DNA of 36,238 nt, taken from Bacillota bacterium (lineage in GTDB: Bacteria > Bacillota > Clostridia > Lachnospirales > CAG-274). Below the pieces are notes generated by a model. That model saw nothing but the letters and a program-made list of their open reading frames with translations. It did not search any database and was not told the origin of the DNA. The stretch covers positions 1 through 36,238 of the forward strand of contig JAFSVK010000009.1 of the NCBI GenBank assembly GCA_017444985.1. The letters run 5' to 3'. Positions 11,701 through 36,238 of the stretch are shown here, one piece after another. A program made the position numbers and the translations under genes. How positions within the stretch are numbered: position 1 is the first letter of the stretch; each line of letters starts with the position of its first letter.

Positions 11701-11902
11701 TATTCAAAGAGGAGATGTTAGTAGAGATGGAAAAGTCGATTCTAAAGATGCCTCGGTAGTTTTGCAACACACAAGCGGAATAAAACCTATTGAAGGAGAG
11801 TTATATGAGGCTGGTGATACAAATAATGACAAATCAATAGATTCTAAGGATGCCTCTGTAATACTGCAATATACCTCAGGTATTTTAACAGAAATAAAAT
11901 AG
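8720..11902 (+). CDS. Secreted modular protein: LRR, cohesin, Ig-like repeats, dockerin
   Basis: A 1060-aa exported protein. A hydrophobic signal segment lies at about residues 12-37 with likely cleavage after VSA. A beta-rich N-terminal region is followed by BspA-type leucine-rich repeats (about 385-580; units like IGNASFEGTQLSTIVLPDTI). A Thr/Glu-rich linker (about 593-623) leads to a cohesin-like domain (about 628-765; VNISNNPGCAGFAIYVYYD). Three repeats of about 70 aa follow (YDG...DYT...NAG...GNYSG). The type I dockerin (997-1060) has two Ca-binding loops, DVSRDGKVDSKD and DTNNDKSIDSKD. No catalytic domain is visible, so a scaffold or adhesion role is likely. SD AGAGG lies 7 bases before the ATG. 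A terminator follows at 11997. AT-rich. Confidence 0.88.
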   Translation: MNCCRIKELLGYYIYYFVIALCCIVNLLFIMTQNVSASSTNSISMMYSYEIGESLEKTILKIFPKGEIRSGDYIIIECLSGIEFNFEMQEPYFFEKECDNGYILTYDGLINKMMFTGKSAYSIYSELNYKNYSYGEMPFKIEFIDNTSAKVYLAPIPSSAVDRSGIITIGKPCYEIPLKGVFKTDENSTPMLWIDGCNTTISDSISITVALSARSSSIGESTFSISDVNAGIYSVDVGKITVRETGADFFKQGDIVTCNLSEGYRISSPNLIIKDNKSKATTNVGTYDNYFEFEIPKEWIDNEKLNYFTIENLQIVPLNRGKNYGSVFLTIKSRNSSLSPKTIKIAEFVYADGMEEDDGSNNISYTNERIPYKVDGGNIYFNKNTGEIVDADYTVKNAVIPSVISETPVKSIGNASFEGTQLSTIVLPDTITNIGDFAFKETQITNINLPEGVVNIGIGAFYKSKLKSFEFPNNIEVVSKQCFSECSLQGTLLIPENIKRIEYGAFSGCSQIERIEVSSGVTFIGSSAFNGCSGLTSVVIPKTVKNIGYQTFNGVPFTMVMYGHRNSIAEGYAKKYKILFMGIGSDSEAQIDTSFETTTEVTTEAFTEVTTESTTEITTTFINTEENCAIIELVPSATSIKAGDSLVLDVNISNNPGCAGFAIYVYYDTEVFSFVEKNFRGSFYTMSCHNYPDEGYVKLAAAANSDNNLKEDILWQLNFTVKEDAYYKTAVFSANVTQLFNMEQTRTGDNLPSQVKNGYVTIEDNNEKKSISEAIVTLSSGSNIYDGNAIKPSVTVVYGGKTLKNGQDYNLYYFNNVNAGTASIRITYIGRYSGEVEKTFIILPKSLISTDVNLSSIAYTYDGEYKQPDVTIKDGEKLLISDIDYTISCYDNLNAGLATIKIVGKGNYSGEFLGKFSIAPKSILGASLDLTSDTYVYNGLSKEPVVILNDGVKNLVKDLDYTVSYTNNTNVGKATVTVSGIGNYHGIIEKEFNIIQRGDVSRDGKVDSKDASVVLQHTSGIKPIEGELYEAGDTNNDKSIDSKDASVILQYTSGILTEIK

Positions 11903-13598: not shown

Positions 13599-15872
13599 TC
13601 ACTTTAATCTCTCTCTAACCTCTTCCGCTGCCTTTACAAGATTTTTAAGGCTTTGTGTTGTTTCCTTTTCTCCCCTTGTTTTGAGACCGCAATCGGGGTT
13701 TACCCAGAGTTTTTCGGCGGGGATGTATTGGAGCATTTTTTCTATTGCCTCTGCTATCTCGGCTTTGGAGGGTACTCGGGGGGAGTGTATGTCGTAGACT
13801 CCGGGTCCTACCTGAGTGCGGAAATTCTTTTCCTTAAGGGTCTTTAGTATGGCAAGGTCGGACCTTGAGGCTTCGAAGGTTATAACATCCGCATCCATAT
13901 CGTCTATGGAGGTTATAATGTCTTCAAACTCGCTGTAGCACATGTGGGTGTGTATCTGTGTGGTTGGCTTTACTTTGCTGTGTACAAGTCTGAAGGCGGG
14001 TATTGCCCAATCAAGGTAATCTTTTTGCCAATCGGCTTTTCTTAAGGGTAGTTTTTCTCTTAAAGCAGCCTCATCCACCTGTATGATATTTATGCCCGCT
14101 TTTTCCAAATCAAGCACCTCTTCCCCTATGGCAAGGGCTATTTGGAGAGTACTTTCCTTCAAGGATATATCTTCCCTGGGGAAAGACCAGTTAAGTATGG
14201 TCACGGCGCCTGTAAGCATACCCTTAAGGGGTTTATTTGTAAGGCTCTTGGCATAGGCAGACCAGACAACAGTCATAGGCTTTTCTCTTGAAACATCTCC
14301 CCATATTATGGGAGGCTTTACACAGCGAGTGCCGTAGGACTGTACCCAAGCTTTTTCCGTAAAAAGAAAGCCCGAAAGACAACTGCCGAAATACTCCACC
14401 ATATCGTTTCTTTCAAACTCTCCGTGAACAAGTACATCAAAACCCATATCTTCTTGTTCTTTTATACAAGAGGCTATTTTGTTTTTAATAATATCCTCGT
14501 ATTTATATCGATTCATCTCACCTTTTCTTAGTGCGGTACGGGCTTGTTTTACATCCTTTGTTTGAGGGAAAGAGCCTATTGTGGTGGTGGGAAGAAGAGG
14601 CAGTTTAAAGTTGTCTTTTTGTATCTTTTCTCTTTCCTCAAAACATGGCTTTCTTATAAGATCTTCTTTTTTAAGAGCCTTTACCCTCTTTTGTACCTCT
14701 TCATTTTCGCCCTTTCTTTTTTGTTTATGAAGATTTTGGTTATTGATATATTCCGCCGAAATTTCGGGAGTTTCAAGTGAAAGTATATTTTTAAGCTCCG
14801 AAAGCTCATCAAGCTTTTCCTCCGCAAAGGCAAAATGCTTTTTATATTCTTCGTCTAACTTCCCTTCGCTTTTAAGAGAACAAGGAAGATGAAGGAGAGA
14901 ACAGGATGTACTTACAACTATATTTTGAACATTCTCTTTAAGCTCTTTTAAAATATCCAAACTCTTTTTATAGTCGTTTCTCCATATATTTTTACCGTTT
15001 ATAATGCCTGCAAAAAGTACCTTTTCTTTTGGAAAGGGCTTTTCTTTTATTAGAGGGAGACTTTTCTTTCCCTCTATAAAGTCCATACCTATGCCGTCAA
15101 AGGGTAGAGTACGCAACACATCCATACAATCTCTCACATCTCCGAAATAGGTTTGCAAAAGAACTTTTACACCCTTGTTTTGAGTAAGTATATTTTTATA
15201 GAGTTTTTCAAAAAGGGCTATATCCTCCCTATCCATATCCAACACCAAAGCAGGCTCATCAAACTGTATCCATCCCACCTTAAGGGAAGAGAATTTTTCA
15301 AGGATATCAGTGTATGCCTTTATAATATCCTCAGCAAGATCCCTTGCCTTTTTACTGCCCTTATATTTTGCAAGCTTAAGGAAGGTGTAGGCACCGAGTA
15401 TAACAGGCTTTGTTTCTATACCCAATTCTTTCGCCTCTGTATAAAGCTTGAAAGGTTTTTCTCCCACAAGCTTTATTTGGGTGTTATCGTCTATTTCGGG
15501 CACGATATAGTGGTAGTTGGTGTTAAACCACTTTTTCATAGGCAGTGCCTTTACATCACCCTTTTCCCCTTGATAGCCTCTTGCAACGGCAAAGTAGGTA
15601 TCTAATGGGGATAAGTTTAGTTTTTGGTACCTTTCGGGTATCACATTAAGTAAAAATGCGTTATCCAATACCCCATCATAATAAGAAAAATCGTTAGAGG
15701 GTATAATATCCACACCTTTATTTTTTTGTAAGCACCAATTATACGCCCTTATTTCCCTCGCCTTTTCTTCAAGCTCTTGTAAAGATATATCATGTTTAAA
15801 ATATGCCTCACAAGCAAATTTAAGTTCTCTTTCTACTCCTATTCTGGGATAACCCACTACTGATATTTTCAT
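13599..15872 (-). CDS. metE: Cobalamin-independent methionine synthase
   Basis: Transfers the methyl group of 5-methyltetrahydrofolate (polyglutamate form) to homocysteine, giving methionine. The 757-aa length matches the two-barrel MetE family. The N-terminal folate-side half starts with [20 protein letters not shown]. The C-terminal half contains [12 protein letters not shown], the Zn-binding HTHMCYSEF and the late Zn cysteine in [16 protein letters not shown] lies 7 bases before the ATG. No S-box or T-box fits in the roughly 100-bp upstream gap. Control is more likely by the adjacent LysR regulator, whose candidate operator lies at 15956-15970. Confidence 0.97.
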
Positions 15873-21337: not shown

Positions 21338-21841
21338 TTATATAAGTTCAAGAATAACTATTTCGGCAGCGTCTCCGCGTCTCATACCAAGCTTTATGAT
21401 CCTTGTGTATCCGCCGTTTCTCCCCTCATACTTAGGTGCAACATTCTCGAACAAGTGATTGGGAAGGTTAACTTCCTTGGAAAGTGTTCTCTTTTTTCTG
21501 CCCTTTGCAGGTACTTCCGTTACGGGATATAATACGGAAAGCATCTTTCTTCTCGCATTGAGACGGGAAGGTGCATCCTTCTTTATAGTCTTTGTAACAT
21601 CACTTACGGTCTTGTTGCCGTTTTTGTCAACTGTTGTCTGCTTAACAACTACCTCTGCCTCTGTAAAGTTGTCTTTCTCCTTTACGGCAAGGGTTATAAG
21701 CTTCTCGGCAATAGATCTGACTTCCTTAGCTTTTGAAACGGTAGTCTTTATCTTGCCGTGGTATAATAAATTGGTAACCTGGTTACGAAGCAACGCCTTA
21801 CGCTGGCTTGCGTTACGGCCAAGCTTTCTGTATTCAGCCAT
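21338..21841 (-). CDS. rplQ: Ribosomal protein bL17
   Basis: A component of the large ribosomal subunit near the exit tunnel. The 167-aa protein begins with the diagnostic [20 protein letters not shown] and ends [16 protein letters not shown]. It is longer than the 120-130 aa of E. coli or B. subtilis because of an insert at about residues 60-125 ([18 protein letters not shown] and following), as in other Clostridia. AAGGAGG precedes the ATG. It follows rpoA by 11 bases and ends the operon. Confidence 0.97.
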
Positions 21842-21852
21842 TACAATCCTCC

Positions 21853-22806
21853 TTAATCATCGCTGGGGCTTAAGCTAAGACCCAACTCATCCAACTTCTT
21901 AAGCACTTCCTCAAGAGACTTACGTCCTAAGTTACGCACTTTCATCATATCATCTTCTGTTTTACCTGCAAGATCCTCTACGGTATTTATACCCGCTCTC
22001 TTAAGACAGTTGTAGGAACGAACGGAAAGATCCAACTCTTCAATGCTCTGTTCAAGAACTTTCTCCTTCGTACCCACTTCCTTCTCCACAAGGATCTCGG
22101 TATTTTTAGCGCTTTCCGAAAGGTCAACAAAAAGGCGAAGATGGTCGTTTAATATCTTTGCACCTAAAGATACGGCATCATCGGGGGTTATGGTACCATT
22201 TGTCCATACCTCAAATGTAAGCTTGTCGTAATCCGTTATCTGACCTACACGGGTGTCTTCAACTTTAAAGTTTACTCTTCTTACGGGAGTATAAAGTGAA
22301 TCCACAGCAATCATTCTAAGTGGTTGGTCGGCTCTCTTGTTTTTGGATGCCTCTACATAGCCTCTGCCCTTTGTAATGGTTATCTCCATAAAAAGCTTTG
22401 TTTCCGCACCGCCGCTTAATGTTGCGATATGAAGGTCGGGATTTAAGATCTCGATATCGGGATCCACTTTTATATCCCCTGCCTTAACTTCGCAATCTCC
22501 CGATGCATCTATGTATGCCATCTTTGTTTCGGAGCCCTCGCTGTTGTTTTTGATAGCGAGATTTTTGAGATTAAGTATAATCTCCGGCACATCCTCCTTT
22601 ACACCGGGTATGGTGCTGAACTCATGAAGAACGCCGTCTATTTTTACATTGCTTACAGCAGAACCGGGAAGGGAAGAAAGAAGTATTCTTCTCAGGGAAT
22701 TACCCAAAGTTGTTCCGTAACCTCTTTCCAAAGGCTCAACTGTAAAGCATCCGTATGTATCTTGTTTTTCTGTTATTTCAATACGAGGTTTTTCAAACTC
22801 AAACAC
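21853..22806 (-). CDS. rpoA: RNA polymerase alpha subunit
   Basis: Nucleates RNA polymerase assembly and contacts promoter UP elements and activators. The 317-aa protein has the N-terminal dimerisation domain ([20 protein letters not shown]) and the C-terminal HhH domain ([33 protein letters not shown]). The start is set at the GTG at 22806: AGGAGG lies 9 bases upstream, and the protein then begins with the family-typical [10 protein letters not shown]. The longer TTG start at 22815 directly abuts the SD and is unlikely. Confidence 0.97.
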
Positions 22807-22874
22807 TCGGCCCAACCTCCTTAATAGTCATTAATACCCAAATTTCATCCTTACCGAGTAACAATATGATATTA

Positions 22875-23465
22875 TTACTTGGAGTACAACTCGACAATAA
22901 GTGTTTCGTTGATGGGTAAATCTAACTGTTCTCTCTTAGGAAGTGTGGTAACAGTACCTGTAAGCTCGTCATGGTTTGCTGTTAACCACTCGGGAACTAT
23001 TCTGCTTGATGTAACATCAAGAACATCTTTAAATCTCTGTAAGTCTTTCTTAGACTCCTTAACGGCAACCACATCGCCTGCTTTAAGCTGTATTGAAGGA
23101 ATGTTAGCCTTCTTGCCGTTTACTGTCACAAGATTGTGTCTTACGATCTGTCTTGCTTCTTTTCTTGTTCTGCCGTAGCCAAGTCTGTAAACTACGTTGT
23201 CAAGTCTGAGCTCAAGAAGCTGTAAGAGGTTCTCACCTGCTATACCGTGCATTCTTTCAGCCTTTTCGTAGTAGTTTCTGAACTGCTTTTCAAGAACACC
23301 GTATATAAATTTAACTTTCTGTTTTTCTTTAAGCTGAATACCGTATTCGCTTAATTTGCGCATATTTCTCTTGCGCTTGCCAAGCTTTTTGCTTGAGCCA
23401 AGAAGTGAGGGTTCTATTCCCAGATATCTGCATCTTTTTACTATGGGGCCCATTTCTCTAGCCAT
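22875..23465 (-). CDS. rpsD: Ribosomal protein uS4
   Basis: A small-subunit 16S rRNA-binding assembly protein and often a translational autoregulator. The 196-aa protein begins MAREMGPIVKRCRYLGIEPS and carries the S4 RNA-binding domain (RLDNVVYRLGYGRTRKEARQ). The start at 23465 has GGAGG 8 bases upstream; the in-frame upstream codons to 23495 are not family-like. It is 81 bp from rpsK, and that gap contains a hairpin. It is 68 bp from rpoA. Confidence 0.97.
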   Translation of the reverse strand: MAREMGPIVKRCRYLGIEPSLLGSSKKLGKRKRNMRKLSEYGIQLKEKQKVKFIYGVLEKQFRNYYEKAERMHGIAGENLLQLLELRLDNVVYRLGYGRTRKEARQIVRHNLVTVNGKKANIPSIQLKAGDVVAVKESKKDLQRFKDVLDVTSSRIVPEWLTANHDELTGTVTTLPKREQLDLPINETLIVELYSK

Positions 23466-23506
23466 TAAAAAGTACCTCCGAATATATATAATCAACGATA
23501 GGTATT

Positions 23507-23529
23507 AGACAAGGTAAACACCTTTGTCT
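23507..23529 (-). promoter_or_regulatory. Hairpin in the rpsK-rpsD spacer
   Basis: Minus strand: AGACAAAGGT and ACCTTGTCT pair (one bulged A) around a 4-base loop, about 40 bases before rpsD. No T-run follows, so it is not a normal terminator. It could be a processing site or part of an S4 regulatory structure. Confidence 0.4.
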
Positions 23530-23546
23530 ATACTCACATACTAAAA

Positions 23547-23942
23547 TTAAACTCTTCTTCTCTTAGGAGGTCTGCAACCGTTGTGAGGAACGGGTGTAAC
23601 ATCCTTTATCATTGTTACGTCAAGGCCGGATGCCTGTAAAGCTCTGATAGCGGCTTCTCTTCCGCTTCCGGGTCCCTTTACGAAAACTTCTACGGTCTTA
23701 AGACCGTAATCCTTTGCAGCGCCTGCCGCCTTCTCTGCAGCCATCTGAGCCGCATAGGGTGTGCTCTTCTTGGAGCCTCTGAAACCAAGCTCACCTGCAC
23801 TTGCCCATGAAAGAGCATTTCCAACGCTGTCTGTTATGGTAACTATTGTATTGTTAAAACTTGACTGAATATGTGCCTGCCCACGCTCAACAACTCTTCT
23901 GTCGCGACGTCTGCGGACACCGGTCTTTTTTGCTTTAGCCAT
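23547..23942 (-). CDS. rpsK: Ribosomal protein uS11
   Basis: A small-subunit platform protein, 131 aa, normal length. Diagnostic segments are [51 protein letters not shown] and the C-terminal [19 protein letters not shown] lies 8 bases before the ATG. It follows rpsM by 25 bases in the operon. Confidence 0.98.
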
Positions 23943-23967
23943 ATCGATATCCTCCTATAAAAATCTA

Positions 23968-24339
23968 TTACTTCTTCTTATTCGCAACAGTTCTTCTCGG
24001 ACCCTTACGTGTTCTTGCATTGGTCTTAGTCTTCTGTCCTCTTACGGGAAGACCCTTTCTGTGGCGAATACCTCTGTAGCATCCGATTTCTACAAGACGC
24101 TTGATATTCATGGCAACTTCTCTTCTTAAGTCACCTTCTACCAATGTGTTTGTGGACTCGATCGCATCTCTTATCTTAGCGACCTCTTCGTCTGTAAGAT
24201 CCCTTACTCTTGTGTCGGGGTTGATACCTGCAACTTCAAGAATCTTGTTTGATTTTGCTCTGCCTATACCGAATACATAGGTAAGGCCTACTTCAATACG
24301 CTTTTCTCTGGGTAAATCTACACCTGAAATACGAGCCAT
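23968..24339 (-). CDS. rpsM: Ribosomal protein uS13
   Basis: A small-subunit head protein contacting the P-site tRNA and 16S rRNA. The 123-aa protein starts [20 protein letters not shown] and ends [17 protein letters not shown], normal for the family. The ATG at 24339 has AGAGGTG upstream at a good distance; the in-frame GTG at 24348 is too close to that site. It is the first gene of this operon. The usual rpmJ and infA are not found upstream, where a long untranslated leader lies instead. Confidence 0.97.
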
Positions 24340-24531
24340 TGACTGCACCTCTTCTTTCTTTAGTATTTTTATTTTGCCGAAAAATGACGAATTCGACTTG
24401 TTGAATACCGTTTAAGAGGAGCAAAAATTTCTCCGAAGCAGCCGCACTTCGAATGAAAGTGAGGCGTTCAAGGGCTTTTCGCCCCATCTTGCCATAAAAA
24501 TCCAAATAAGCGGATATTCAACCGAATACTG
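24340..24531 (-). promoter_or_regulatory. Structured 5' leader of the alpha operon
   Basis: About 185 nt lie between the inferred start site (near 24525) and the rpsM ATG. The ends of the leader core can pair (GTTGAATATCCG with CGGTATTCAAC), closing a domain that holds smaller hairpins: GGGC-loop-GCCC, CACTT-loop-AAGTG and GGAG-loop-CTCC. No rpmJ or other small gene is found in it. This looks like an r-protein autoregulatory leader, but no specific family is recognised. Confidence 0.5.
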
Positions 24532-25082: not shown

Positions 25083-26663
25083 TCAAACTCCGCTTTCGCC
25101 GTAGTTTGACAGTACTCTTGCCGAAGGGTCGTTTACGTTGCAACCCTCCCAATCTTTGTTGGGCATCCAGAAATCGGCGATCATTTCACTGTTTCCCGGG
25201 TAGTACTTTTCAAATATATCTCTGTAGAGAAGAGATTCCTTTGTAAAAGGCTGAGCATGACTGTATTTTTTAACACCCTCTTTAAATTCTTCATCGGTAT
25301 ATACTTCTTCTGCGTACTCTTTAAGGTAGTCTACCATGGAATGACCCACAGCATCGGAAAAGGCAGCCTTTTCTCTGTAGAGTATATTTTTTGGCAGGTA
25401 GTCGCCCTCAAAGGCATGTCTTAACAGATACTTTCCTTTGTTGTATTTGTTAAGTTTCATCTCCGGGTCTATTGCCATAACATATTTTACAAAATCCAGA
25501 TCCCCGAAGGGTACTCTTGCTTCAAGGGAGTTTACGGATATACAGCGGTCAGCCCTAAGTACGTCGTACATGTGAAGCTCTCTCACTCTTTTTTGGGATT
25601 CCTCCTGAAAAGCTTGGGCTGAAGGGGCAAAATCCGTATATTTGTAACCGAAAAGCTCATCCGATATTTCTCCCGTAAGAAGCACCCTTATATCCGTTTT
25701 TTCGTGTATGGCTTTACACAAAAGATACATGCCCATACTTGCCCTTACGGTGGTTATATCGTAGGTAGCAAGTAAATGTATAACATCTTCAAGAGCATTT
25801 AAAACATCTTCTTTTGTTATTATCACCTCGGTGTGGTCGCTTTTGATATACTCTGCCACTTCCTTGGCATATTTCAGATCTATGGCATCGGTATCCATAC
25901 CTATGGCAAAGGTCTTTATAGGCTTGTCGCTTTTTTTCCGGGCTATGGCGCACACAAGGGAAGAGTCTAAGCCACCCGATAACAAGAAGCCCACCTTGGC
26001 ATCGGAATCAAGGCGTTTTTCAACACCCGATACAAGCTTATCGTGTATATTTTTACAGACCGTATCTATATCTTCCTTTATAACGGTCTCCACTTTCGTC
26101 ATATCTCTGTAGCTTATAAACTCCCCGTCTTTATAGTAGCAACCCGGAGGAAAGGGAAGTATCTTTTTACAAAGACCCGTTAAATTTTTAGGCTCACTTG
26201 CAAAAATAATATCCTCGTTTTTGTCGTAACCGTAGTAAAGAGGGCGAATACCTATAGGGTCTCTTGCCGCTATGAACTTTTTGGCTTTATTGTCGTATAT
26301 TATACAAGCATACTCCGCATCAAGCATCTTAAACATATCAACGCCGTGTTCCTTATAAAGAGGAAGGAGTATTTCGCAATCGCTGTCACTTTTGAAAGTA
26401 TATCCCTTAGCCGAAAGTTCTTTTTTAAGCTTTCTGAAACCGTATATCTCACCGTTACAAACAAGGTAGTTGCCTTCAAACTCAAAAGGCTGCATACCCT
26501 CGGGTGTAAGACCCATTATCGAAAGCCTTTGAAAGCCCAAAATACCCTCTCCGCAATCTATTATCCTGCTGTCATCGGGACCTCTTGAGACCGTTGCCGA
26601 AAGTCCCCTTTCCACATCCTCTTTACTGCCGCCTTTACCGCAGTATCCCATTACTGTACACAT
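25083..26663 (-). CDS. asnB: Asparagine synthase (glutamine-hydrolysing)
   Basis: Converts aspartate, glutamine and ATP to asparagine, glutamate, AMP and PPi. The 526-aa protein has the two usual domains. The N-terminal class II (Ntn) glutaminase begins MCTVMGYCGK with catalytic Cys2, with RGPDDS and LVCNGEIYGF following. The C-terminal synthetase has the PP-loop FLLSGGLDSSLVCAIA and LTGEISDELFGYKY. The spacing to purF is 18 bases with GGAGG before the ATG, so it is the last gene of the glt operon. No T-box is present, unlike many asparagine genes in the phylum; control is probably through the operon. Confidence 0.96.
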   Translation of the reverse strand: MCTVMGYCGKGGSKEDVERGLSATVSRGPDDSRIIDCGEGILGFQRLSIMGLTPEGMQPFEFEGNYLVCNGEIYGFRKLKKELSAKGYTFKSDSDCEILLPLYKEHGVDMFKMLDAEYACIIYDNKAKKFIAARDPIGIRPLYYGYDKNEDIIFASEPKNLTGLCKKILPFPPGCYYKDGEFISYRDMTKVETVIKEDIDTVCKNIHDKLVSGVEKRLDSDAKVGFLLSGGLDSSLVCAIARKKSDKPIKTFAIGMDTDAIDLKYAKEVAEYIKSDHTEVIITKEDVLNALEDVIHLLATYDITTVRASMGMYLLCKAIHEKTDIRVLLTGEISDELFGYKYTDFAPSAQAFQEESQKRVRELHMYDVLRADRCISVNSLEARVPFGDLDFVKYVMAIDPEMKLNKYNKGKYLLRHAFEGDYLPKNILYREKAAFSDAVGHSMVDYLKEYAEEVYTDEEFKEGVKKYSHAQPFTKESLLYRDIFEKYYPGNSEMIADFWMPNKDWEGCNVNDPSARVLSNYGESGV

Positions 26664-26681: not shown

Positions 26682-28106
26682 CTATTCCTTATGTATCTTT
26701 TCGTCAAATTTATTTTTGTTTCCCGCCTCCGACACATCTACGGGGTAATTTCCCGTAAAGCAACCGTCGCAGTACCCGAAACCATTGTTTATAATATCAC
26801 CTAAAGCCTCTGTAGGCAGATAGGCAAGGCTATTCGCTCCTATAAAGCTTGCTATCTCATCCTTGGATGAACATTTATCCGCTATAAGGTTTTCCTCCGA
26901 ATCTATGTCCGTTCCGAAGTAGCAGGAATGTATAAAGGGTGGAGATGATATCCTTACATGCACTTCCTTTGCCCCTGCCTGCCTTAAAAGGCCCACTATC
27001 CTTCCCGCTGTTGTTCCCCTTACAATGGAGTCATCTATCATTACCACTCTCTTGCCCCTAACGGTTTCTTCTATGGGGCTAAGCTTTATCTTTACCGCAT
27101 TTTCTCTGCCGTTTTGCTCGGGTTGTATAAAACTTCTTCCTATATATTTATTCTTTACAAAGCCTATGCCGTAGGGTATGCCGCTTTCTCTTGCGTAGCC
27201 TAAGGCGGCATCTATACCCGAATCGGGTACGCCTATAACAACATCCGCTTCTACGGGAGAGTATTTTGCAAGTATCTGCCCTGCATGGAGCCTTGCTTTA
27301 TGAACACTTACACCTTCTATAACGGAATCGGGACGGGCGAAATATATGTACTCAAAAATACATATCCTCTTTCTTCCACTGCAGTTGGTCTTTATGGATC
27401 TTAAGCCGGACTCGTCTATAACAACTATCTCTCCCGCTTCCACATTCCTTAAAAACTTAGCTCCCACAGCCTCTAAAGCACAGGTCTCCGAAGCCACTAC
27501 CATAGCCCCGTCTTCACACTCGCCTATACACAAAGGTCTGAAACCTTCGGGATCTCTAAAGGCTATAAGTTTTGTGGCTGTCATAAGTATGCAGGAATAG
27601 GCTCCCTTTAAAAAGGGCATAGCCTTTTCCACCGCTTCTTCCGTAGATGCCGCACTAAGTCTTTCTCTTACAATGGCGTAGGCTATAGCCTCGGTGTCGG
27701 AAGAACCGTGAAATATACCTGCGGACATTTCAAATATCCTTCTCAAAGTCCCTGCGTTTACAAGGTTCCCATTATGTACAAGAGCCATATTGCCCTTTAT
27801 ATGCCTTATAACAAGGGGCTGTATGTTATTCATACTCTTGCCCCCGGTAGTGGAATATCTTACATGTCCCACTGCCATATTGCCCTCACCGAGCTTTTCG
27901 GTCTCCTCTTTTGTGAAAACCTCGGATACCAAGCCGTCGGCTCTTTTTTCTCTGAATATCCCGTCATCACATACGGTTATACCGCAACTTTCCTGCCCTC
28001 TGTGTTGCAGGGCATACAAACCGAAATAGGCAGGTATAGCCACCTTTGTCCTCTTTTTTTCATATATTCCGAATACTCCGCATTCTTCATGTATGGAATC
28101 AAACAT
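26682..28106 (-). CDS. purF: Amidophosphoribosyltransferase
   Basis: First committed step of purine synthesis: PRPP and glutamine give phosphoribosylamine. The 474-aa protein is of the Bacillus type, with a short propeptide MFDSIHEE before the catalytic Cys9 (CGVFGIYE). Cysteines fitting the 4Fe-4S cluster are seen (a cysteine in RKRICIFEY, one in SCYFGTD, and YCDGC near the end). The PRPP loop reads RVVMIDDSIVRGTT. It is unusual that purF sits here rather than with other pur genes. It lies between the ANTAR gene (9-base gap) and asnB (18-base gap), clearly in the nitrogen operon. This may be a second copy or the only one; the window cannot tell. Confidence 0.96.
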   Translation of the reverse strand: MFDSIHEECGVFGIYEKKRTKVAIPAYFGLYALQHRGQESCGITVCDDGIFREKRADGLVSEVFTKEETEKLGEGNMAVGHVRYSTTGGKSMNNIQPLVIRHIKGNMALVHNGNLVNAGTLRRIFEMSAGIFHGSSDTEAIAYAIVRERLSAASTEEAVEKAMPFLKGAYSCILMTATKLIAFRDPEGFRPLCIGECEDGAMVVASETCALEAVGAKFLRNVEAGEIVVIDESGLRSIKTNCSGRKRICIFEYIYFARPDSVIEGVSVHKARLHAGQILAKYSPVEADVVIGVPDSGIDAALGYARESGIPYGIGFVKNKYIGRSFIQPEQNGRENAVKIKLSPIEETVRGKRVVMIDDSIVRGTTAGRIVGLLRQAGAKEVHVRISSPPFIHSCYFGTDIDSEENLIADKCSSKDEIASFIGANSLAYLPTEALGDIINNGFGYCDGCFTGNYPVDVSEAGNKNKFDEKIHKE

Positions 28107-28115
28107 TTTACACCT

Positions 28116-28697
28116 CTAAAGATATTGCTCGCTGAGTTTATCTATAATATCAAGGGCGGCAATATTTTTCTTCTTTCGTTTGTTCATAGCATACTTTTCC
28201 AGATATTGATGAGCCTGTTCTTCCGTCATGGATTTATACTCCATAAGCATAAATTTGGCTTTGTCTATAGTCTTTATATCGGAAAGTTTTTCCTCAAGTT
28301 TTTTGTTTTTAAGATATAAAGACATAGCTCTCATAGCCGCAATATCCACTGTTCTTATAATTTGGTAAAGTACGGTTTTTGAAAAGGGCTTTCCCACGGG
28401 AATGACCCCTGCCTTTTCCATACGCTCCGACAACTTTTCCGCCGCCTCGGCTTTTATAAGAAGTATACAGTTTGCAGTGAAATTTTCGGCTATTTTCTCC
28501 GCCAACTCAATACCCGTTTCGTCCATGAGAGGGGAGTTTACCACAACCAAGTCAATACCCGTATCCGACTCCAAAACATTAAGAGCTTGATAGGCGGACT
28601 CTTCAAACCTGAGCTCGTAGCTGAAATACTCACGAAGAAAAGCAAGAAGGGATTCGGAAAATGTTTTATTGCTTGAAACTACAAGTACCTTTTCCAA
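28116..28697 (-). CDS. ANTAR-domain regulator with degenerate receiver domain
   Basis: A 193-aa protein. Residues about 1-110 have a response-regulator receiver fold, but the acidic pair is replaced by SSN (8-10) and the phospho-acceptor position is N54 (DLVVVNSPL); K103 in GKPF is kept. Residues about 125-185 match the ANTAR RNA-binding domain (LEEKLSDIKTIDKAKFMLME and MTEEQAHQYLEKYA). ANTAR proteins bind paired hexaloop hairpins and prevent termination, typically for nitrogen genes. Phosphorylation-independent control is expected here, perhaps by binding the neighbouring glutamine synthetase homologue. The TTG start is supported by AAGGAGGG 6 bases upstream. No clear ANTAR hairpin pair is seen in this window. 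Confidence 0.9.
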   Translation of the reverse strand: MEKVLVVSSNKTFSESLLAFLREYFSYELRFEESAYQALNVLESDTGIDLVVVNSPLMDETGIELAEKIAENFTANCILLIKAEAAEKLSERMEKAGVIPVGKPFSKTVLYQIIRTVDIAAMRAMSLYLKNKKLEEKLSDIKTIDKAKFMLMEYKSMTEEQAHQYLEKYAMNKRKKKNIAALDIIDKLSEQYL

Positions 28698-28709: not shown

Positions 28710-29987
28710 TTAAAATATATAAAAATACTTCTTCTCCATAAAATCTTCTTTATCTCGAGCCACGGAATATTCTCTCCACTGCTCGTTTGCCTCTTCCAAG
28801 GTCTTGTTAAGTATTTCCGAGGGAATATAGTTTTTTAAAAACTCGGATATTTGTGCTGTTTGGGCTGCCTCCGATATATTTTTGGCAAGGGCGGACAGGG
28901 AGTTTTCCTTTTCGGGAAGAGGCTCCTTATCAGCTATTGCCTCAAGGGAGGCGTATATTATAAGTCCGAAAACGATATAGGGATTACATACACAGTCCGA
29001 TATTTTTAAAGTCACCAAAAATCCATCTTCACCCGAGGACAGGCGTACAAGCTCATACCCTTCTTTATCCGACCAACTTACGTTAGAGGGTGCGCCGTAA
29101 CGTCCAAGCCTCAAGTAGGAATTGACGGTAGAGTTGGTAAAAAGTGTAAAGTCCTGTATATACTTTAATACTCCCGCTGCCCCATACCTTGTTATCTCTT
29201 TACATTCTTCCTCTTTTTCTTCCAAAAAGTCCGTATCCGGGTAAATGTTAAAGCTTATGTTCATGGCATTACCGCTACCCTCTCTTAAAGGTTTTGGCAT
29301 AAAGGAGGCATAAACTCCGTGAGTATCCGCTACAGACCTTACGGCGGATTTAAAGCTTAAAAAGGTGTCTGCAGCCTTTAAAGCGGATGCGGTGTTAAAA
29401 TCTATCTCGTGTTGACCCCAACCGCTCTCATGTCTTGAAGATATGGGACGTATACCCATTTGCTCCAAGGTAAGACACACATCTCGCCTTATATTTTCTC
29501 CCTTATCATCGGGTGCCGTATCACAGTAGCCCGCATAATCGTGGGGTGTTTTCGTGGGAAGTCCTCTTTCGGATAATGTAAAGAGTGTAAACTCACAAGA
29601 TGTACCGAAGCGAAAACAATAGCCTGCGGATATCGCTGCCTTCATGGCTTTTTTGAGAAAATATCTCGAATCTCCTTCAAAGTGGGTGCCGTCGGCATAG
29701 CGTATGAAACAGTACATCCTTATTACTCTGCCTTGTTGGGGTCTCCAGGGAAGTACCGTCATGGTACGGGGATCGGGGAAAAGAAATATGTCCCTGCCCT
29801 TAGCAATATCAAAACCCGCTATCTTCTCCGAAGCTATCCTTACACCCTTTTCAAATATGCCCTCCAATTCGGAGGAAAGTATGGATATATTTTTCAATCT
29901 TCCGTAAAGATCGCAAAATGTCAACTTTATAAACTTAACATCGTTTTCCTCTATATATTGCAGTATTTCTTTTTCGGTATAGATCAT
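28710..29987 (-). CDS. Glutamine synthetase family protein, divergent active site
   Basis: A 425-aa homologue of type I glutamine synthetase. The N-terminal beta-grasp domain (VKFIKLTFCDLYGRLKNISI) and catalytic domain are both recognisable (LPWRPQQGRVIRMYC, HFEGDSRYFLKK, SFMPKPL, CNPYIVFGL). Several conserved sites are changed. The usual E-x-E-F metal motif reads GTSCEFTLF (first Glu to Ser), the usual GSG(M/L)H reads GSGNAMN (active-site His lost), and the SSI/SIRGF loop reads SEKIAGF. The glutamates in RHE and QHE remain. It may be an enzyme of changed specificity or a regulatory pseudoenzyme. It is 24 bases from gltD and 12 from the ANTAR gene. AAGGAG precedes the ATG. Confidence 0.85.
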   Translation of the reverse strand: MIYTEKEILQYIEENDVKFIKLTFCDLYGRLKNISILSSELEGIFEKGVRIASEKIAGFDIAKGRDIFLFPDPRTMTVLPWRPQQGRVIRMYCFIRYADGTHFEGDSRYFLKKAMKAAISAGYCFRFGTSCEFTLFTLSERGLPTKTPHDYAGYCDTAPDDKGENIRRDVCLTLEQMGIRPISSRHESGWGQHEIDFNTASALKAADTFLSFKSAVRSVADTHGVYASFMPKPLREGSGNAMNISFNIYPDTDFLEEKEEECKEITRYGAAGVLKYIQDFTLFTNSTVNSYLRLGRYGAPSNVSWSDKEGYELVRLSSGEDGFLVTLKISDCVCNPYIVFGLIIYASLEAIADKEPLPEKENSLSALAKNISEAAQTAQISEFLKNYIPSEILNKTLEEANEQWREYSVARDKEDFMEKKYFYIF

Positions 29988-30011: not shown

Positions 30012-31493
30012 TTACAGGTTGGTATATCCCATAAGGTACTCATCCACTTCTTTTGCCGCTTTTCTGCCTTCGTCTATGGCTCTTACCACAAGGGATTGAC
30101 CTATATGCATATCTCCTGCGGTAAAGACCTTTTCTGCGGTGGTGGAGTGTTTGTTTTTCTCCGTTTTAACATTGGTACGCTCATCCACTTCCACACCGAA
30201 GGCCTGTGTAATATAGCTTTGAGAGCCCAAAAATCCTGCGGCTATGAGACAAAGCTCACAATCCAGTATCTTTTCGCTGCCTTCTATTTCTTTGGGAACT
30301 CTTCTGCCGCTGTTTTTATCCGTTACAAACTCAAGCTTAACTGTCTTTACAGCCTTAAGTCTACCCTCATCATCCTTTATAAATTCCTTTACGGTGGTCT
30401 CGTATATACGAGGGTCATTTCCGAAAACTGCTATAGCCTCTTCCTGACCGTAGTCTGTTTTGCAAACTCTGGGATATTGAGGGAAAGGATTGTTTTCCGC
30501 TCTCTCATCCGGAAGCTTAGGCATCATTTCAAGCTGTGTTACGGAACGACAGCCCTGTCTTACGGAGGTACCCACACAGTCGTTACCCGTGTCGCCTCCG
30601 CCTATTATTATAACGTTTTTATCTTTGGCACTTATATACTTGTTATCCGTAAGCCCCGAATCAAGCAAACTCTTGGTGGTAGCTTTCAAGAAATCCACCG
30701 CAAAGTGTATACCCTTCGCATCCCTTCCCTCTGCCTTTATATCTCTGGGGTTTGAGGAACCGCAAGCAAGTACCACGGCATCAAATTCACTTAATATCTC
30801 CTTAGAGGAAACATTTTCACCTACATTTGCATTTGTAACAAACTCCACGCCCTCTTCTTCCATAAGGGCTACACGCCTGTCTATTATGTGTTTTTCAAGC
30901 TTCATATTGGGAATGCCGTACATCAAAAGGCCTCCCACACGGTCGAATCTCTCATACACTCTTACAAAGTGGCCCCTTTTGTTAAGGGTATCGGCAACGG
31001 CAAGACCCGAGGGACCCGAACCTATTACCGCCACCTTTTTACCGCTTCTGTGTATTTTCTCTGCCTTTATGATTCCCTCTTCAAAGCCGTATTCTATAAG
31101 AGCATTTTCATTTTCCCTTACGGCAACGGGACTGTCGTACACACCGCATATACAAGCCTTTTCACAAAGGGCGGGGCATACTCTTGAAGTAAACTCGGGG
31201 AAGTTATTTGTTATCAAGAGCCTTTTTAAAGCCGTCTTCTTTCTGCCGTGATAGAGTTCATCGTTCCACTCGGGTATAAGGTTGTTTAAAGGGCAACCCG
31301 ATATCATACCTCCAAGCATTTTGCCGTTTTGACAAAAGGGGACACCGCAGTCCATACACCTTGCCGCCTGTTTACATCTTTCACCTTCCTCAAGAGGAAG
31401 ATGAAATTCATTATAATTTTTGATTCTCTCCAAGGGTGCTACAGCCCTGTTTTCTATTCTCTCATATTCCAAAAAGCCCGTGGCTTTACCCAT
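30012..31493 (-). CDS. gltD: Glutamate synthase small subunit (NADPH)
   Basis: Oxidises NADPH and passes electrons through FAD and Fe-S clusters to the large subunit. The 493-aa protein has N-terminal cysteine clusters (CKQAARCMDCGVPFC, SGCPLNN, CPALCEKACICG) for two 4Fe-4S centres. An FAD-binding VAVIGSGPSGLAVADTL follows, then a second nucleotide-binding motif NVIIIGGGDTGNDC and the C-terminal FAD contact TAGDMHIGQSLVVRAIDEGR. The length is typical. It starts 2 bases after the gltB stop, and its SD (AAGGAGG) lies in the last codons of gltB, so translation is coupled. Confidence 0.96.
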   Translation of the reverse strand: MGKATGFLEYERIENRAVAPLERIKNYNEFHLPLEEGERCKQAARCMDCGVPFCQNGKMLGGMISGCPLNNLIPEWNDELYHGRKKTALKRLLITNNFPEFTSRVCPALCEKACICGVYDSPVAVRENENALIEYGFEEGIIKAEKIHRSGKKVAVIGSGPSGLAVADTLNKRGHFVRVYERFDRVGGLLMYGIPNMKLEKHIIDRRVALMEEEGVEFVTNANVGENVSSKEILSEFDAVVLACGSSNPRDIKAEGRDAKGIHFAVDFLKATTKSLLDSGLTDNKYISAKDKNVIIIGGGDTGNDCVGTSVRQGCRSVTQLEMMPKLPDERAENNPFPQYPRVCKTDYGQEEAIAVFGNDPRIYETTVKEFIKDDEGRLKAVKTVKLEFVTDKNSGRRVPKEIEGSEKILDCELCLIAAGFLGSQSYITQAFGVEVDERTNVKTEKNKHSTTAEKVFTAGDMHIGQSLVVRAIDEGRKAAKEVDEYLMGYTNL

Positions 31494-31495
31494 AT

Positions 31496-34400
31496 TTATG
31501 CCTCCTTTCCCATGTATTCAAAAGCTTTCAGTTCTGCCTCATCCAAGGAAGAACCTTGCTTTACAAGTTCTTTTATCTTTTCGCTCATCCATTTGTAATC
31601 TTTGGGGATTATCTTTTTAAAGCAGGGTATATAGTTCTTGAAATCATCAAGTATAAGCTTTGCTTTCTCCGATGCGGTATTTTGGTAGTATTCTTCTATA
31701 ATGCTTCTCAACTCCGCAATATCCTCTGCATCGGCAAGGGTGGTGACCTCAAGATCGCTCTTGTTAAGTCTTGTGTAGAGGTCGTGCTTTTCATCAAGTA
31801 CATAGGCTATACCCCCCGACATACCTGCGGCAAAGTTTTTACCCGTTCTGCCAAGTATTACGGCTCTACCACCTGTCATATACTCACAGCCGTGGTCTCC
31901 CACGCCCTCACATACGGCTACGGCACCGGAGTTTCTTACGCAAAATCTCTCTCCCGCCACACCGTTTATAAAGGCTTTGCCCGAGGTAGCACCGTAAAGC
32001 ACCACATTACCAACTATAATGTTTTCATCTGCTTTAAAATCTGCCTTTTCGCTCTTGCGAAGTACAAGCTTACCTCCCGAAAGACCTTTTCCGAAATAGT
32101 CGTTACTGTCTCCCTCAAGTCTAAGTGTAAGACCCTTTGGTATAAAGGCACCGAAGGACTGACCTCCGCTTCCCTTACAATTTATAACAAAGGTATCGTC
32201 TTCGAGAGCGTTATCACCGTGTATGCGGGTTATTTCGGAACCAAAGAATGTACCCACACAGCGGTCTGTGTTCTTCACATCTATATTTACACTTTGATGC
32301 TCACCCTTCTTCAAAGCCGAACCTATCTTCTTTATTATAACCTTTTGGTCTACCGTTCTGTCAAGACCAAAATCATATTCATCTTCTTTTACAAAGTGCT
32401 TTTTCTCATCCGTATCCACACTAAAGAGTATACTGTTGAGATCTATGTTAAGCTCATGGGCTTTATTCTTTACTTTAAGAAGGTCGGTTCTGCCTACAAG
32501 CTCGTCTACCGTTCTTATTCCAAGCCTTGCCATATACTCTCTGAGCTCTTCCGCTATAAAGTGCATGAAGTTTATGATATATTCAGGCTTACCTTGAAAT
32601 CTTGCTCTGAGCTTGGGATCTTGAGTAGCTATACCCATAGGACAGGTATCCAGGTTACAAACTCTCATCATAACGCAACCCATAGTTACAAGGGGCGCTG
32701 TGGCAAAGCCAAACTCCTCCGCTCCCAAAAGAGCCGCAACAAGTACATCTCTACCCGTCATAAGCTTTCCGTCGGTCTCTATGCGTACTCTTGAACGAAG
32801 GCCGTTAAGTACCAAGGTTTGATGTGTCTCAGCCACACCCAGCTCCCAAGGAAGACCTGCATTGTATATGGAGCTTTTCGGAGCCGCACCCGTTCCGCCA
32901 TCGTGCCCCGATATAAGTATTACCTGGGCTCCCGCCTTTGCCACACCTGCCGCAACGGTACCTACTCCCGCCTCGGAAACCAGCTTTACGGAAATACGGG
33001 CTTTGGAGTTGGCATTTTTAAGGTCGTATATAAGCTGTGCCAGATCCTCTATGGAGTATATATCATGGTGAGGAGGCGGCGATATAAGACCTACACCCGC
33101 CGTAGAGTGACGGGTCTTTGCTATCCAAGGATATACCTTTCCCTTAGGGAGATGACCGCCCTCACCGGGCTTTGCACCCTGTGCCATTTTTATCTGTATC
33201 TCCTTTGCGGATACCAGATACTTACTTGTTACTCCGAATCTACCCGATGCCACCTGCTTTATGGCAGAGCATCTGTTATCTTCCAATCTTTCGGGGCTTT
33301 CTCCGCCCTCACCGCTGTTGGACTTTCCGCCTATGCTGTTCATGGCTATAGCCATACATTCATGAGCCTGTTGGGATATGGAGCCGTAGGACATGGCACC
33401 TGTTTTAAAGCGTGTGCATATACTTTCCACCGACTCAACTTCATTTATATCTATACCACCCTTGGGGTCGAAATTAAAGTCTACAAGGGAGCGAAGTGTA
33501 AGCTCGTTATCCTCTCTTGTAAGAGCTGCGGAGTACTCTTTAAATGTTTGATAGGAACCTGTTTTGGTAGCCTGTTGAAGTAAGTGTATGGTCTCGGGTG
33601 TGTAGAGATGGTCTGTCTTATTGCTTCTGAGCTTGTGGCTACCCACACTCAATATATTTTTCTCTCTGCCCAAACCCAAAGGTTCATAAGCATCGGCATG
33701 GAGTTTTTCGGTGCGAAGACTTATCTCCTTTAAACCTATACCACCTATACGGCTTACTGTACCCGCAAAATATTTTTCCGTAAGTTCTTTTGATATACCC
33801 ACAGCCTCAAAAAGTTTACTTCCCTGATAGGATTGTATGGTAGAAATACCCATTTTTGAAGCTATTTTAACTATACCGTGTATCACGGCGCTGTTGTAAT
33901 CATCCTCAGCCGCATAAAAATCCTTTGTAAGAGAGCCGTCTTGTATAAGGGAATGTATACATTCATGGGCAAGGTAGGGATTTACGGCACAAGCACCGTA
34001 TCCCAAAAGTGTGGCAAAGTGATGTACCTCTCTGGGTTCTCCGCTTTCAAGTATAAGAGCTACCGCCGTGCGCTTCTTCGTAGCCACAAGATGTTGTTGA
34101 AGTGCGGATACCGCCAAAAGTGAAGGTATGGGGCAGTGGAACTCATCCACATCTCTGTCGGAAAGCACCATAATATTTGCTCCGTCCTTATATGCCTTAT
34201 CCACCTGCACGAAAAGCAACTCTATAGCCTTTTCAAGAGGGGTGCCCAAATAATAAGTTATGGGTATCACCGCTGTTTTAAGACCCTTTGAATCAAGACT
34301 CTTTATTTTGAGCATATCGGTTTCCGTAAGTATGGGGTTTTCCACTCTCAGCACCCTACAATTTTCGGGGCTTTCATCCAAAAGGTTACCGTCACTTCCA

Positions 34401-36031
34401 AGGTATATACCCATATCCGTTACAAGCTCTTCTCTTATGGCATCAAAGGGAGGGTTCGTTACCTGTGCAAACATCTGCCTAAAGTAGTTGAAAAGAGGGG
34501 GCATTTGTTTATCCAAAGGAGGAAGGGCTATATCGCTTCCCATAGAAGCTATGGGCTCCGCTCCTTTTTCTGCCATGGGCAGTATGGATGTTCTTATGTT
34601 TTCATAGCTGTAGCCGAAAACCTTTTGTAGCCTTGCAAGTTCCTCATCGGAATAGGACTTAACGGCTTTATTTGGTATATGAAGGTCGTGAAGACCTATT
34701 AGATTTGCATCCAGCCATTCTCCGTAGGGTGAACGGGAGGCATAACGATCCTTTAACTCCTCATCATCAACGATACGCCCCTGTAGGGTATCCGTCAAAA
34801 GCATTTTACCGGGACGAAGTCTGTCTTTTTTAACTATATTTTCCTCCGGCACATCTACACAGCCCGTTTCGGAGGAAAGTATGAGGAAGCCGTCCTTTGT
34901 AACTATATATCTTGAAGGTCTGAGACCGTTTCTGTCAAGCACCGCACCTAAAATATCGCCGTCTGTGAATACTATGGAAACGGGACCGTCCCAAGGCTCC
35001 ATCATCGTAGCGTAGTAGGCGTAAAAATCACGCACGGACTTTGAAAGTGTGGTGTTATTCTTCCAAGGCTCGGGTATGGTTATCATTACCGCCATGGGAA
35101 GGGGTATACCCGACATTACCATAAGCTCCAAAGCATTATCAAGTCTTGCGGAGTCCGAACCCTTTACATTTATGGAAGGAAGTATTTTGTACATATCATC
35201 CTTAAGAAAGGGAGAGTACATTTTCTCTTCACGTCCCAACATTTTATCCGCATTACCCGTAATGGTATTTATTTCACCGTTGTGAACGATAAGCCTGTTG
35301 GGGTGAGCTTTTTGCCAGCTGGGTACGGTATTTGTGGAGAAACGGGAGTGTACGGCGGCTATTGCCGATACAAAGCCTTTATCCCTCAGGTCGTTGTAAA
35401 ATCCCCTCAGCTCATACACAAGGAACATACCCTTGTAAACTATGGTCTTGCTCGAAAATGAACATACATAGGTATTTTCGTCGGACTGTTCAAACTCTCT
35501 TCTTGTTATAAAAAGCTTTCTTTCAAAATCAATGCCCTTGGAGCAATTTTCGGGACGCTTTACAAAGCCTTGCACTATGGAGGGCATACTTTCAAGAGCT
35601 TTTTTACCCAGTATGTTTGCCTTTGTGGGTACCTCTCTCCAGCCTAAAAATTCAAGACCGTTTTTTTCGGATATTATTTCAAAAAGCTTTTTGGCTCTGC
35701 TTCTTTTAAGTTCATTGTTGGGAAAGAAAAACATTCCCACACCGAAGTCTCCCTTCTCTCCCATATCAAAGCCCAGCTTTTTACCTTCTTTTATAAAAAA
35801 ATCATAGGGCATTTGCAGTATTATACCTACGCCATCCCCCGTTTCACCTCTTGCATCCTTACCCGCACGGTGTTCAAGCTTTTCTACTATTTGCAGGGCA
35901 GTTTCCACAACGTAACGAGACTGCTCACCTTTTATATTAACACATGCCCCTATACCACAGTTGTCATGTTCAAAGGTCGGATCGTAAAGACCTTGAGGAT
36001 TAAAGGGATCTTCTTTTCTGAAATTGTCCAT
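31496..36031 (-). CDS. gltB: Glutamate synthase large subunit
   Basis: Makes two glutamates from glutamine and 2-oxoglutarate. The 1511-aa protein matches the bacterial large subunit. After a 24-residue propeptide, catalytic Cys25 (HDNCGIGAC) heads the class II amidotransferase domain (to about 430). A central linker domain and the FMN/synthase domain follow (GEGGESPERL, KPGEGGHLPKGKVYP). The 3Fe-4S cysteines are near residue 1120 (CVMMRVCNLDTCPMG). The C-terminal GXGXG beta-helix spans about 1280-1430 (GSGGQSFGAF, GLSGGKLVL, AGMSGGIAYV). First gene of the six-gene operon. SD is GAAAGGA. The 157-bp repeat lies 44 bp upstream. Confidence 0.97.
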   Translation of the reverse strand: MDNFRKEDPFNPQGLYDPTFEHDNCGIGACVNIKGEQSRYVVETALQIVEKLEHRAGKDARGETGDGVGIILQMPYDFFIKEGKKLGFDMGEKGDFGVGMFFFPNNELKRSRAKKLFEIISEKNGLEFLGWREVPTKANILGKKALESMPSIVQGFVKRPENCSKGIDFERKLFITRREFEQSDENTYVCSFSSKTIVYKGMFLVYELRGFYNDLRDKGFVSAIAAVHSRFSTNTVPSWQKAHPNRLIVHNGEINTITGNADKMLGREEKMYSPFLKDDMYKILPSINVKGSDSARLDNALELMVMSGIPLPMAVMITIPEPWKNNTTLSKSVRDFYAYYATMMEPWDGPVSIVFTDGDILGAVLDRNGLRPSRYIVTKDGFLILSSETGCVDVPEENIVKKDRLRPGKMLLTDTLQGRIVDDEELKDRYASRSPYGEWLDANLIGLHDLHIPNKAVKSYSDEELARLQKVFGYSYENIRTSILPMAEKGAEPIASMGSDIALPPLDKQMPPLFNYFRQMFAQVTNPPFDAIREELVTDMGIYLGSDGNLLDESPENCRVLRVENPILTETDMLKIKSLDSKGLKTAVIPITYYLGTPLEKAIELLFVQVDKAYKDGANIMVLSDRDVDEFHCPIPSLLAVSALQQHLVATKKRTAVALILESGEPREVHHFATLLGYGACAVNPYLAHECIHSLIQDGSLTKDFYAAEDDYNSAVIHGIVKIASKMGISTIQSYQGSKLFEAVGISKELTEKYFAGTVSRIGGIGLKEISLRTEKLHADAYEPLGLGREKNILSVGSHKLRSNKTDHLYTPETIHLLQQATKTGSYQTFKEYSAALTREDNELTLRSLVDFNFDPKGGIDINEVESVESICTRFKTGAMSYGSISQQAHECMAIAMNSIGGKSNSGEGGESPERLEDNRCSAIKQVASGRFGVTSKYLVSAKEIQIKMAQGAKPGEGGHLPKGKVYPWIAKTRHSTAGVGLISPPPHHDIYSIEDLAQLIYDLKNANSKARISVKLVSEAGVGTVAAGVAKAGAQVILISGHDGGTGAAPKSSIYNAGLPWELGVAETHQTLVLNGLRSRVRIETDGKLMTGRDVLVAALLGAEEFGFATAPLVTMGCVMMRVCNLDTCPMGIATQDPKLRARFQGKPEYIINFMHFIAEELREYMARLGIRTVDELVGRTDLLKVKNKAHELNIDLNSILFSVDTDEKKHFVKEDEYDFGLDRTVDQKVIIKKIGSALKKGEHQSVNIDVKNTDRCVGTFFGSEITRIHGDNALEDDTFVINCKGSGGQSFGAFIPKGLTLRLEGDSNDYFGKGLSGGKLVLRKSEKADFKADENIIVGNVVLYGATSGKAFINGVAGERFCVRNSGAVAVCEGVGDHGCEYMTGGRAVILGRTGKNFAAGMSGGIAYVLDEKHDLYTRLNKSDLEVTTLADAEDIAELRSIIEEYYQNTASEKAKLILDDFKNYIPCFKKIIPKDYKWMSEKIKELVKQGSSLDEAELKAFEYMGKEA

Positions 36032-36075
36032 TTTTTCACTTTCCTTTCAATAATGAGGCTTCTGTTTAAAATTTA

Positions 36076-36232
36076 GGGGAGCTCTAAAAAGTGCTATTGA
36101 AGTAAAATTGAGATATCTTGTTCGAGGACTGGGAAATGGCTCGAAGCCAATGTAGAGCATTGGTGAGAGACATTGACGACTAACCTTTGCAAGATAGCCA
36201 ATTTTACAATTTATGACTTTTTAGAGGTTCCC
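36076..36232. repeat. MITE-like 157-bp repeat, copy 2
   Basis: Same length and orientation as the copy at 2202-2358, with ends GGGGAGCTCTAAAAAGT and ACTTTTTAGAGGTTCCC. The central hairpins are identical between copies, and most changes fall in an 8-base patch (36180-36188 region). It lies between the glt operon and whatever is upstream beyond the window, so the operon promoter must be within it, between it and gltB, or beyond it. I see no good -35/-10 pair in the 44 bp between. Confidence 0.8.
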
Positions 36233-36238
36233 TTTATA

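Follow-up and report, generated by a model that had tools for sequence, protein, structure and literature searches.

In Clostridium saccharobutylicum, the GlnA–NitR pair joins an ANTAR protein to glutamine synthetase (GS) and glutamate synthase (GOGAT) genes and acts by antitermination under nitrogen limitation, according to a review (PMC6316151). In Bacillus, feedback-inhibited GS, a GSI-alpha protein, serves GlnR and TnrA as a nitrogen receptor for transcription regulators (PMC9249791). In Pseudomonas, AmiC, a non-catalytic ligand-binding protein, acts over the ANTAR antiterminator AmiR (PMC3369936). The leaders bound by EutV and other ANTAR proteins carry a hexaloop that overlaps an intrinsic terminator; the published recognition features are A1 and G4 of the hexaloop, and the targets include nitrogen genes, such as glutamate synthase in Desulfotomaculum (PMC3369931, PMC8934654). 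The minimal motif is held to be a single hexaloop (PMC8934654). The candidate receptor described here bears on how non-phosphorylatable ANTAR antiterminators in Clostridia receive their nitrogen signal.

The window, by which we mean the whole stretch of 36,238 nucleotides that was analysed, belongs to a genome of 2.67 Mb (98.5% complete). It carries an operon in the order gltB-gltD-GS-ANTAR-purF-asnB, running from 36031 down to 25083 (Table 1). An earlier note on this DNA had placed a GS homologue in a GOGAT operon beside an ANTAR regulator, and the gene order agrees.

Table 1 Features of the operon and of the adjoining contig end
Feature	Position in window	Strand	Size	Evidence or remark
gltB, glutamate synthase large subunit	31496..36031	-	1511 aa	NF008730, 1639 bits
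gltD, glutamate synthase small subunit	30012..31493	-	493 aa	TIGR01317, 649 bits
Pseudo-glutamine synthetase (pseudo-GS), GSI-alpha fold	28710..29987	-	425 aa	Profile matches, residue mapping, AlphaFold model
ANTAR antiterminator	28116..28697	-	193 aa	Pfam ANTAR, E 2e-15; TTG start as listed
purF-type amidophosphoribosyltransferase, glutamine-using	26682..28106	-	474 aa	TIGR01134, 494 bits
asnB, asparagine synthase, glutamine-using	25083..26663	-	526 aa	NF006949, 626 bits
Dispersed repeat at contig end, between gltB and the probable promoter/attenuator	36074..36238	-	~165 bases	Copy number in the genome 40 or more

The pseudo-GS ORF starts with ATG and has no internal stops. It matches Gln-synt_C (PF00120, E 8e-56) and Gln-synt_N (PF03951, E 2e-15), and the nearest solved structures are Bacillus-type GSI-alpha enzymes. 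The AlphaFold model (mean pLDDT 89) finds S. aureus GS as its best PDB match (Z 47.1, rmsd 2.1, 397 residues). The Pfam domains and the model alignment give the GSI-alpha architecture, a beta-grasp N-domain followed by a catalytic C-domain. Both its fold and its ancestry make the protein a GS, and the claim that the type I fold and signatures are retained is borne out by both Pfam domains, the GSI-alpha relatives, and the model alignment. The score against the NCBIfam GlnA equivalog TIGR00653 is 237.5 bits and does not reach the cut-off of 429.2.

The metal ligands of type I GS belong to two sites, termed the first and the second. Residues are numbered as in B. subtilis GS, to which pseudo-GS was mapped by alignment. 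The second-metal ligands are all altered (E132 to S, in GTSCEF; H245 to N; E333 to T), and the first-metal ligands E134, E189, and E196 are retained, as are Y156, G241, R298, and R321. The six metal ligands (E132, E134, E189, E196, H245, E333) read SEEENT, compared with EEEEHE in 63 of 63 intact relatives. Further changes are R62 to I, R331 to L, and R335 to K, together with D53, E304, and R316, which are A, G, and G and are kept in 0 of 16 sequences from the clade. The Asp-50 loop is altered from FDGSSIEGF to RIASEKIAGF. The catalytic Glu and His do not reappear at shifted positions, and GSGNAMN aligns with VNGSGMH without a gap.

The earlier note had read lost catalysis from three features: the Ser in place of the first Glu of the E-x-E-F metal site, the missing His of GSG(M/L)H, and the altered SIRGF-type loop. 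The Ser and the loop are confirmed, and E132 is lost across the clade too. For the His, the letters were right but were given too much weight; H245 is retained in 53 of 53 orthologues covering the position, and H245N is private to the window's pseudo-GS. The losses common to the Ruminococcus flavefaciens group are E132, D53, E304, R316, and R331.

E134, G241, and R298 contact the alpha-amino and alpha-carboxyl groups of the amino acid; these and most other residue roles are taken from published work on GS (PMC9249791, PMC10799026). Among inactive ANTAR-linked GS, E134, G241, R298, and Y156 are each present in 39 of 39 rows, compared with 3 of 39 for E132 and 46% for E333, and the window's own protein likewise has an intact pocket for the amino acid. 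On residue mapping, pseudo-GS is thus shown to be without second-metal, phosphate-binding, ammonium, and flap residues and to keep the alpha-amino and alpha-carboxyl holders of glutamate or glutamine. Judged from these residues, it cannot be an ordinary GS.

The earlier note had offered, as an alternative to a sensor, an amide-forming enzyme acting on another substrate; gamma-glutamylpolyamine and methylamide synthetases are ligases of this kind. Pseudo-GS retains the GS fold and gives weak matches to gamma-glutamylputrescine synthetase and type III models, and most orthologues retain H245, R335, and the first metal site. However, none of the three second-metal ligands is preserved in the window's protein, E132 and the phosphate-contacting R316 and R331 are changed clade-wide, and the linked genes are only ANTAR, GOGAT, and amidotransferase genes, with no substrate-specific gene. 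Because the second metal site and the phosphate-binding arginines are lost, a ligase is disfavoured, and we regard it as highly improbable.

The genome does not depend on pseudo-GS for GS activity. A search for a second, intact glnA, proposed in the earlier note, finds one rather than none, on contig C74 behind apparent purC, purB, and purA, plus a type III glnN on the neighbouring contig C162, which also encodes an AmtB–PII fusion. Since the genome has both GlnA and GlnN, GS activity of pseudo-GS is dispensable. The resident glnA is now without an ANTAR neighbour.

The ORF next to pseudo-GS has a C-terminal ANTAR domain (56.5 bits, cut-off 27.3) and a receiver domain that scores 28.5 bits, slightly below its cut-off. 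The receiver is degenerate, with Asn54 in place of the phospho-accepting Asp. The phospho-acceptor is missing from 82 of 82 ANTAR proteins examined in relatives; the acidic pair, too, is mostly missing. The window's genome encodes no other ANTAR protein. Without a phospho-acceptor, the signal must come otherwise than by ordinary phosphorylation, and by analogy with AmiC for AmiR (PMC3369936), a ligand-binding partner is a natural candidate for the input. In the Ruminococcus clade, the ANTAR protein ends in a fixed tail, mostly D-K-[LI]-[SN]-E-Q-Y-L (window 28116-28160), which is absent from other GS-linked ANTAR proteins. The tail could dock in the pseudo-active site, by analogy with the GlnR tail in Bacillus GS.

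At least 53 full orthologues, 62–70% identical, are found, nearly all in R. flavefaciens and near relatives. The ANTAR gene lies directly after the pseudo-GS gene in 53 of 53, and nearly all share the operon order. At one locus (L080), the GS–ANTAR pair is separate from gltB yet still together. Linkage by itself, as read from gene order, would not be proof of contact between the two proteins. A dead GS could instead serve as a scaffold or subunit, forming mixed dodecamers with active GS or an anchor for GOGAT, with the ANTAR gene merely co-transcribed. GSI builds large oligomers of one subunit type, an intact GlnA is encoded alongside pseudo-GS in the genome, and the pseudo-GS gene lies between enzymes of one pathway, all of which would suit such a role. 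On the other hand, the conserved partner is ANTAR and not gltB, as the stand-alone pair at L080 illustrates. Moreover, a single further GSI-type protein was found in R. flavefaciens, likewise dead and linked to ANTAR, and the remaining GS is a type III GlnN of different architecture. We consider a scaffold unlikely.

The dN/dS of pseudo-GS between close pairs is 0.02–0.07, similar to gltD and purF; therefore, the dead protein is maintained. In a quick tree, the window's pseudo-GS falls inside the R. flavefaciens-group clade (support 100) on a long terminal branch (0.49). The window's gltB, gltD, purF, and asnB are mostly 75–83% identical to the R. flavefaciens group, and its rpoA is mostly 80–89% identical to its own family compared with 62–64% to that group. 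In a relative (G011, 98% complete), the sole GS gene lies near an ANTAR gene, and there is no GlnN. The GS–ANTAR operon of the window was thus probably acquired horizontally. A misbinned contig was considered and rejected, as the rpoA that matches the genome's own family lies on the same contig. The window's copy could in principle be on the way to a pseudogene after transfer into a genome that has GlnA; besides the long branch, it alone among the orthologues has lost H245, and R335 and E333 are lost as well. Nevertheless, its ORF is full-length, its ANTAR partner is the sole one in the genome, its amino-acid pocket is intact, and most of its catalytic losses are common to a clade under the selection described above. 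Decay is very unlikely; the extra losses of H245 and R335 could be drift.

The operon lies directly upstream of an rpsM-rpsK-rpsD-rpoA-rplQ cluster (21338-24348). Two relatives (G011 and G005) carry adk-map-infA-rpmJ at this place, consistent with insertion of the operon at a rearrangement point. Elsewhere, the window encodes a BspA-type protein with leucine-rich repeats and a dockerin at the C-terminus (8720-11902), which suggests a cellulosome-associated surface protein, and just before it an ORF with a SIR2-like domain (7604-8566).

Some 100 bases ahead of gltB, Ruminococcus leaders have in common a sigma-70-like promoter, together with a hexaloop and a terminator that overlaps it. A1 and G4 of the hexaloop (GAAC-AANGAC-GTT) are invariant in 37 leaders. 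In 96.6% of cells the stem of the hexaloop is paired, with little variation, and the terminator pairs covary, with 54 compensatory cells compared with 9 in shuffles. The 5' strand of the terminator overlaps the hexaloop, so that the two structures are mutually exclusive. A covariance model places further copies of the attenuator before a stand-alone asnB in two Ruminococcus genomes (L135, strain FD-1; L136) and, in the genome with the split pair (L080), before both the pair and gltB (L133, L137). In a pattern scan, a hexaloop–terminator also appears before pyrG, which encodes the glutamine-using CTP synthase (L082, ~14120-14240, minus strand). Within the window's family, weaker matches lie just upstream of intact glnA in 14 genomes.

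In the window itself, the Rfam gathering scan gives no match, and no attenuator was found in the last 207 bases before gltB. The covariance model gives a single match in the genome, at the end of C162 (5881-5929, plus strand), after the amtB–PII fusion and glnN genes. Many contigs of this genome end in the repeat at the window's contig end. The end of C162 overlaps the window's contig by exactly 141 bases of the repeat, and among the copies only that of C162 is 100% identical. In another genome (L066), the order glnN-attenuator-gltB is intact. The C162 attenuator is therefore probably joined to the window's gltB through the repeat.

ANTAR-linked GS proteins were surveyed more widely; because loci were picked for their similarity to a dead query, the survey gives no frequency of dead GS. 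ANTAR-linked GS that are roughly 40–48% identical occur in several families of the same order, mostly with intact catalytic residues. Dead proteins form a genus-level clade in one family, f6 (E132K/R, E333I, R316N, R331H), and are also found at L224 (E132S, E333I) and L120 (E132R, E196T, E333V). Single-site losses at L108, L219, and L225 each concern one row; they could be errors in the sequence or one-off events, and no conclusion here rests on them. R. flavefaciens-group genomes (L257-L265) have a second GS–ANTAR pair with a dead GS (E132K, E189K, H245S/C), before which no convincing hexaloop was found. Genomes with a dead ANTAR-linked GS carry one or more other GS, in most cases GlnN; the exception, G202, is a 91% complete draft.

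Two groups stood out among the loci. A separate clade (L196, L205, L208, L209, L215-L218, L223) has a 414-aa ANTAR-linked GS with E132K/R and E333I, and at L196 a GltD-like C-terminus is encoded just upstream. In the other group (L192, L193, L195, L203, L206, L212, L214), a 391-aa ANTAR-linked GS keeps all metal ligands and has lost D53, R316, and R321; it is possibly half-way to a pseudoenzyme.

The quick tree requires seven changes between intact and dead. AU tests do not reject a union of the window clade with either the second R. flavefaciens pair (p 0.49) or the g88 clade (p 0.59), nor a union of all three (p 0.42); for a grouping of L120 with the window clade, p is 0.075. Independent losses in the three large dead clades would thus rest on their differing substitutions and are not proven; we considered them as a firm claim and dropped it, because a single origin survives the AU tests. 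We tentatively extend the proposal to a general class, in which dead GS serve the phosphorylation-independent ANTAR antiterminators of Clostridia as nitrogen receptors, having lost catalysis on several occasions with the amino-acid pocket held fixed; R. flavefaciens would have two such pairs with differing inactivating changes beside type III GlnN. We put this somewhat short of even odds.

Pseudo-GS is probably a nitrogen sensor for the ANTAR protein, because catalysis is lost, the residues that hold the amino acid are kept, and ANTAR is always adjoining. On comparative evidence from sequence, we propose, with a probability of roughly 0.6, that it reads glutamine or glutamate and controls a phosphorylation-independent ANTAR antiterminator. 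The earlier note had given as its first alternative a nitrogen-sensing pseudoenzyme that controls ANTAR; this view gains support from the ANTAR pairing in every complete neighbourhood, from purifying selection, and from the retention of amino-acid-binding over catalytic residues. The sole ANTAR protein of the genome, with no phospho-acceptor, and the putative ANTAR-type attenuators on linked genes point the same way. In the proposed mechanism, pseudo-GS would bind glutamine (or glutamate), and ligand occupancy would decide whether it holds or frees the ANTAR protein. When nitrogen is short, free ANTAR protein would bind the hexaloop and block the terminator, so that transcription would continue into the gltB operon. 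This sign, with the operon on under nitrogen shortage, is borrowed by analogy from NitR of C. saccharobutylicum (PMC6316151). The arrangement would resemble AmiC with AmiR, and glutamine-bound Bacillus GS with GlnR and TnrA. Points against it include the lone hexaloop of the leaders, where the classical ones are paired, and the place of the window's own attenuator on another contig, reached through a repeat.

Bacillus GS reads glutamine via E304 and R62 (PMC9249791), and both residues are lost in pseudo-GS; therefore, pseudo-GS must sense by a different chemistry, or its ligand may be something other than glutamine. Pseudo-GS might then sense another signal, such as 2-oxoglutarate, a nucleotide, or the state of the ammonium transporter or PII, and relay it to ANTAR. 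Some archaeal GS respond to 2-oxoglutarate (PMC10799026), and an AmtB–PII fusion is encoded on the neighbouring contig. The retention of all three alpha-amino and alpha-carboxyl contacts in every dead row fits an amino-acid ligand instead, and we consider another signal unlikely.

If glutamine or glutamate sensing is true, a GS that has discarded catalysis and kept its amino-acid pocket is the likely receptor for a non-phosphorylatable ANTAR protein. It would show a metabolic enzyme with a regulatory side role turning regulator-only, in major rumen fibre degraders. GS-annotated genes of this type are not to be counted as ammonia-assimilating in rumen metagenomes.

Both the GS–ANTAR (NitR) pair and the control of nitrogen genes by ANTAR proteins are known, whereas such a pair with a dead GS appears to be undescribed. 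No paper joining an ANTAR protein with a GS-like pseudoenzyme was found in the open literature searched, and neither this gene order nor the hexaloop attenuators seen here turned up in it. In the GlnA–NitR pair, GS is an enzyme, as far as the review tells (PMC6316151), whereas pseudo-GS is without catalysis. Bacillus GS is active, is glutamine-bound, and has partners that bind DNA (PMC9249791), whereas pseudo-GS is paired with an ANTAR protein, which binds RNA. AmiC binds amides and is no GS derivative (PMC3369936), and the contact of pseudo-GS with its ANTAR protein is proposed. Two-component ANTAR proteins such as EutV have a phosphorylatable receiver Asp, in contrast to the ANTAR protein here. 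Finally, eut leaders carry two hexaloops, whereas one conserved hexaloop is recognised in each leader here.
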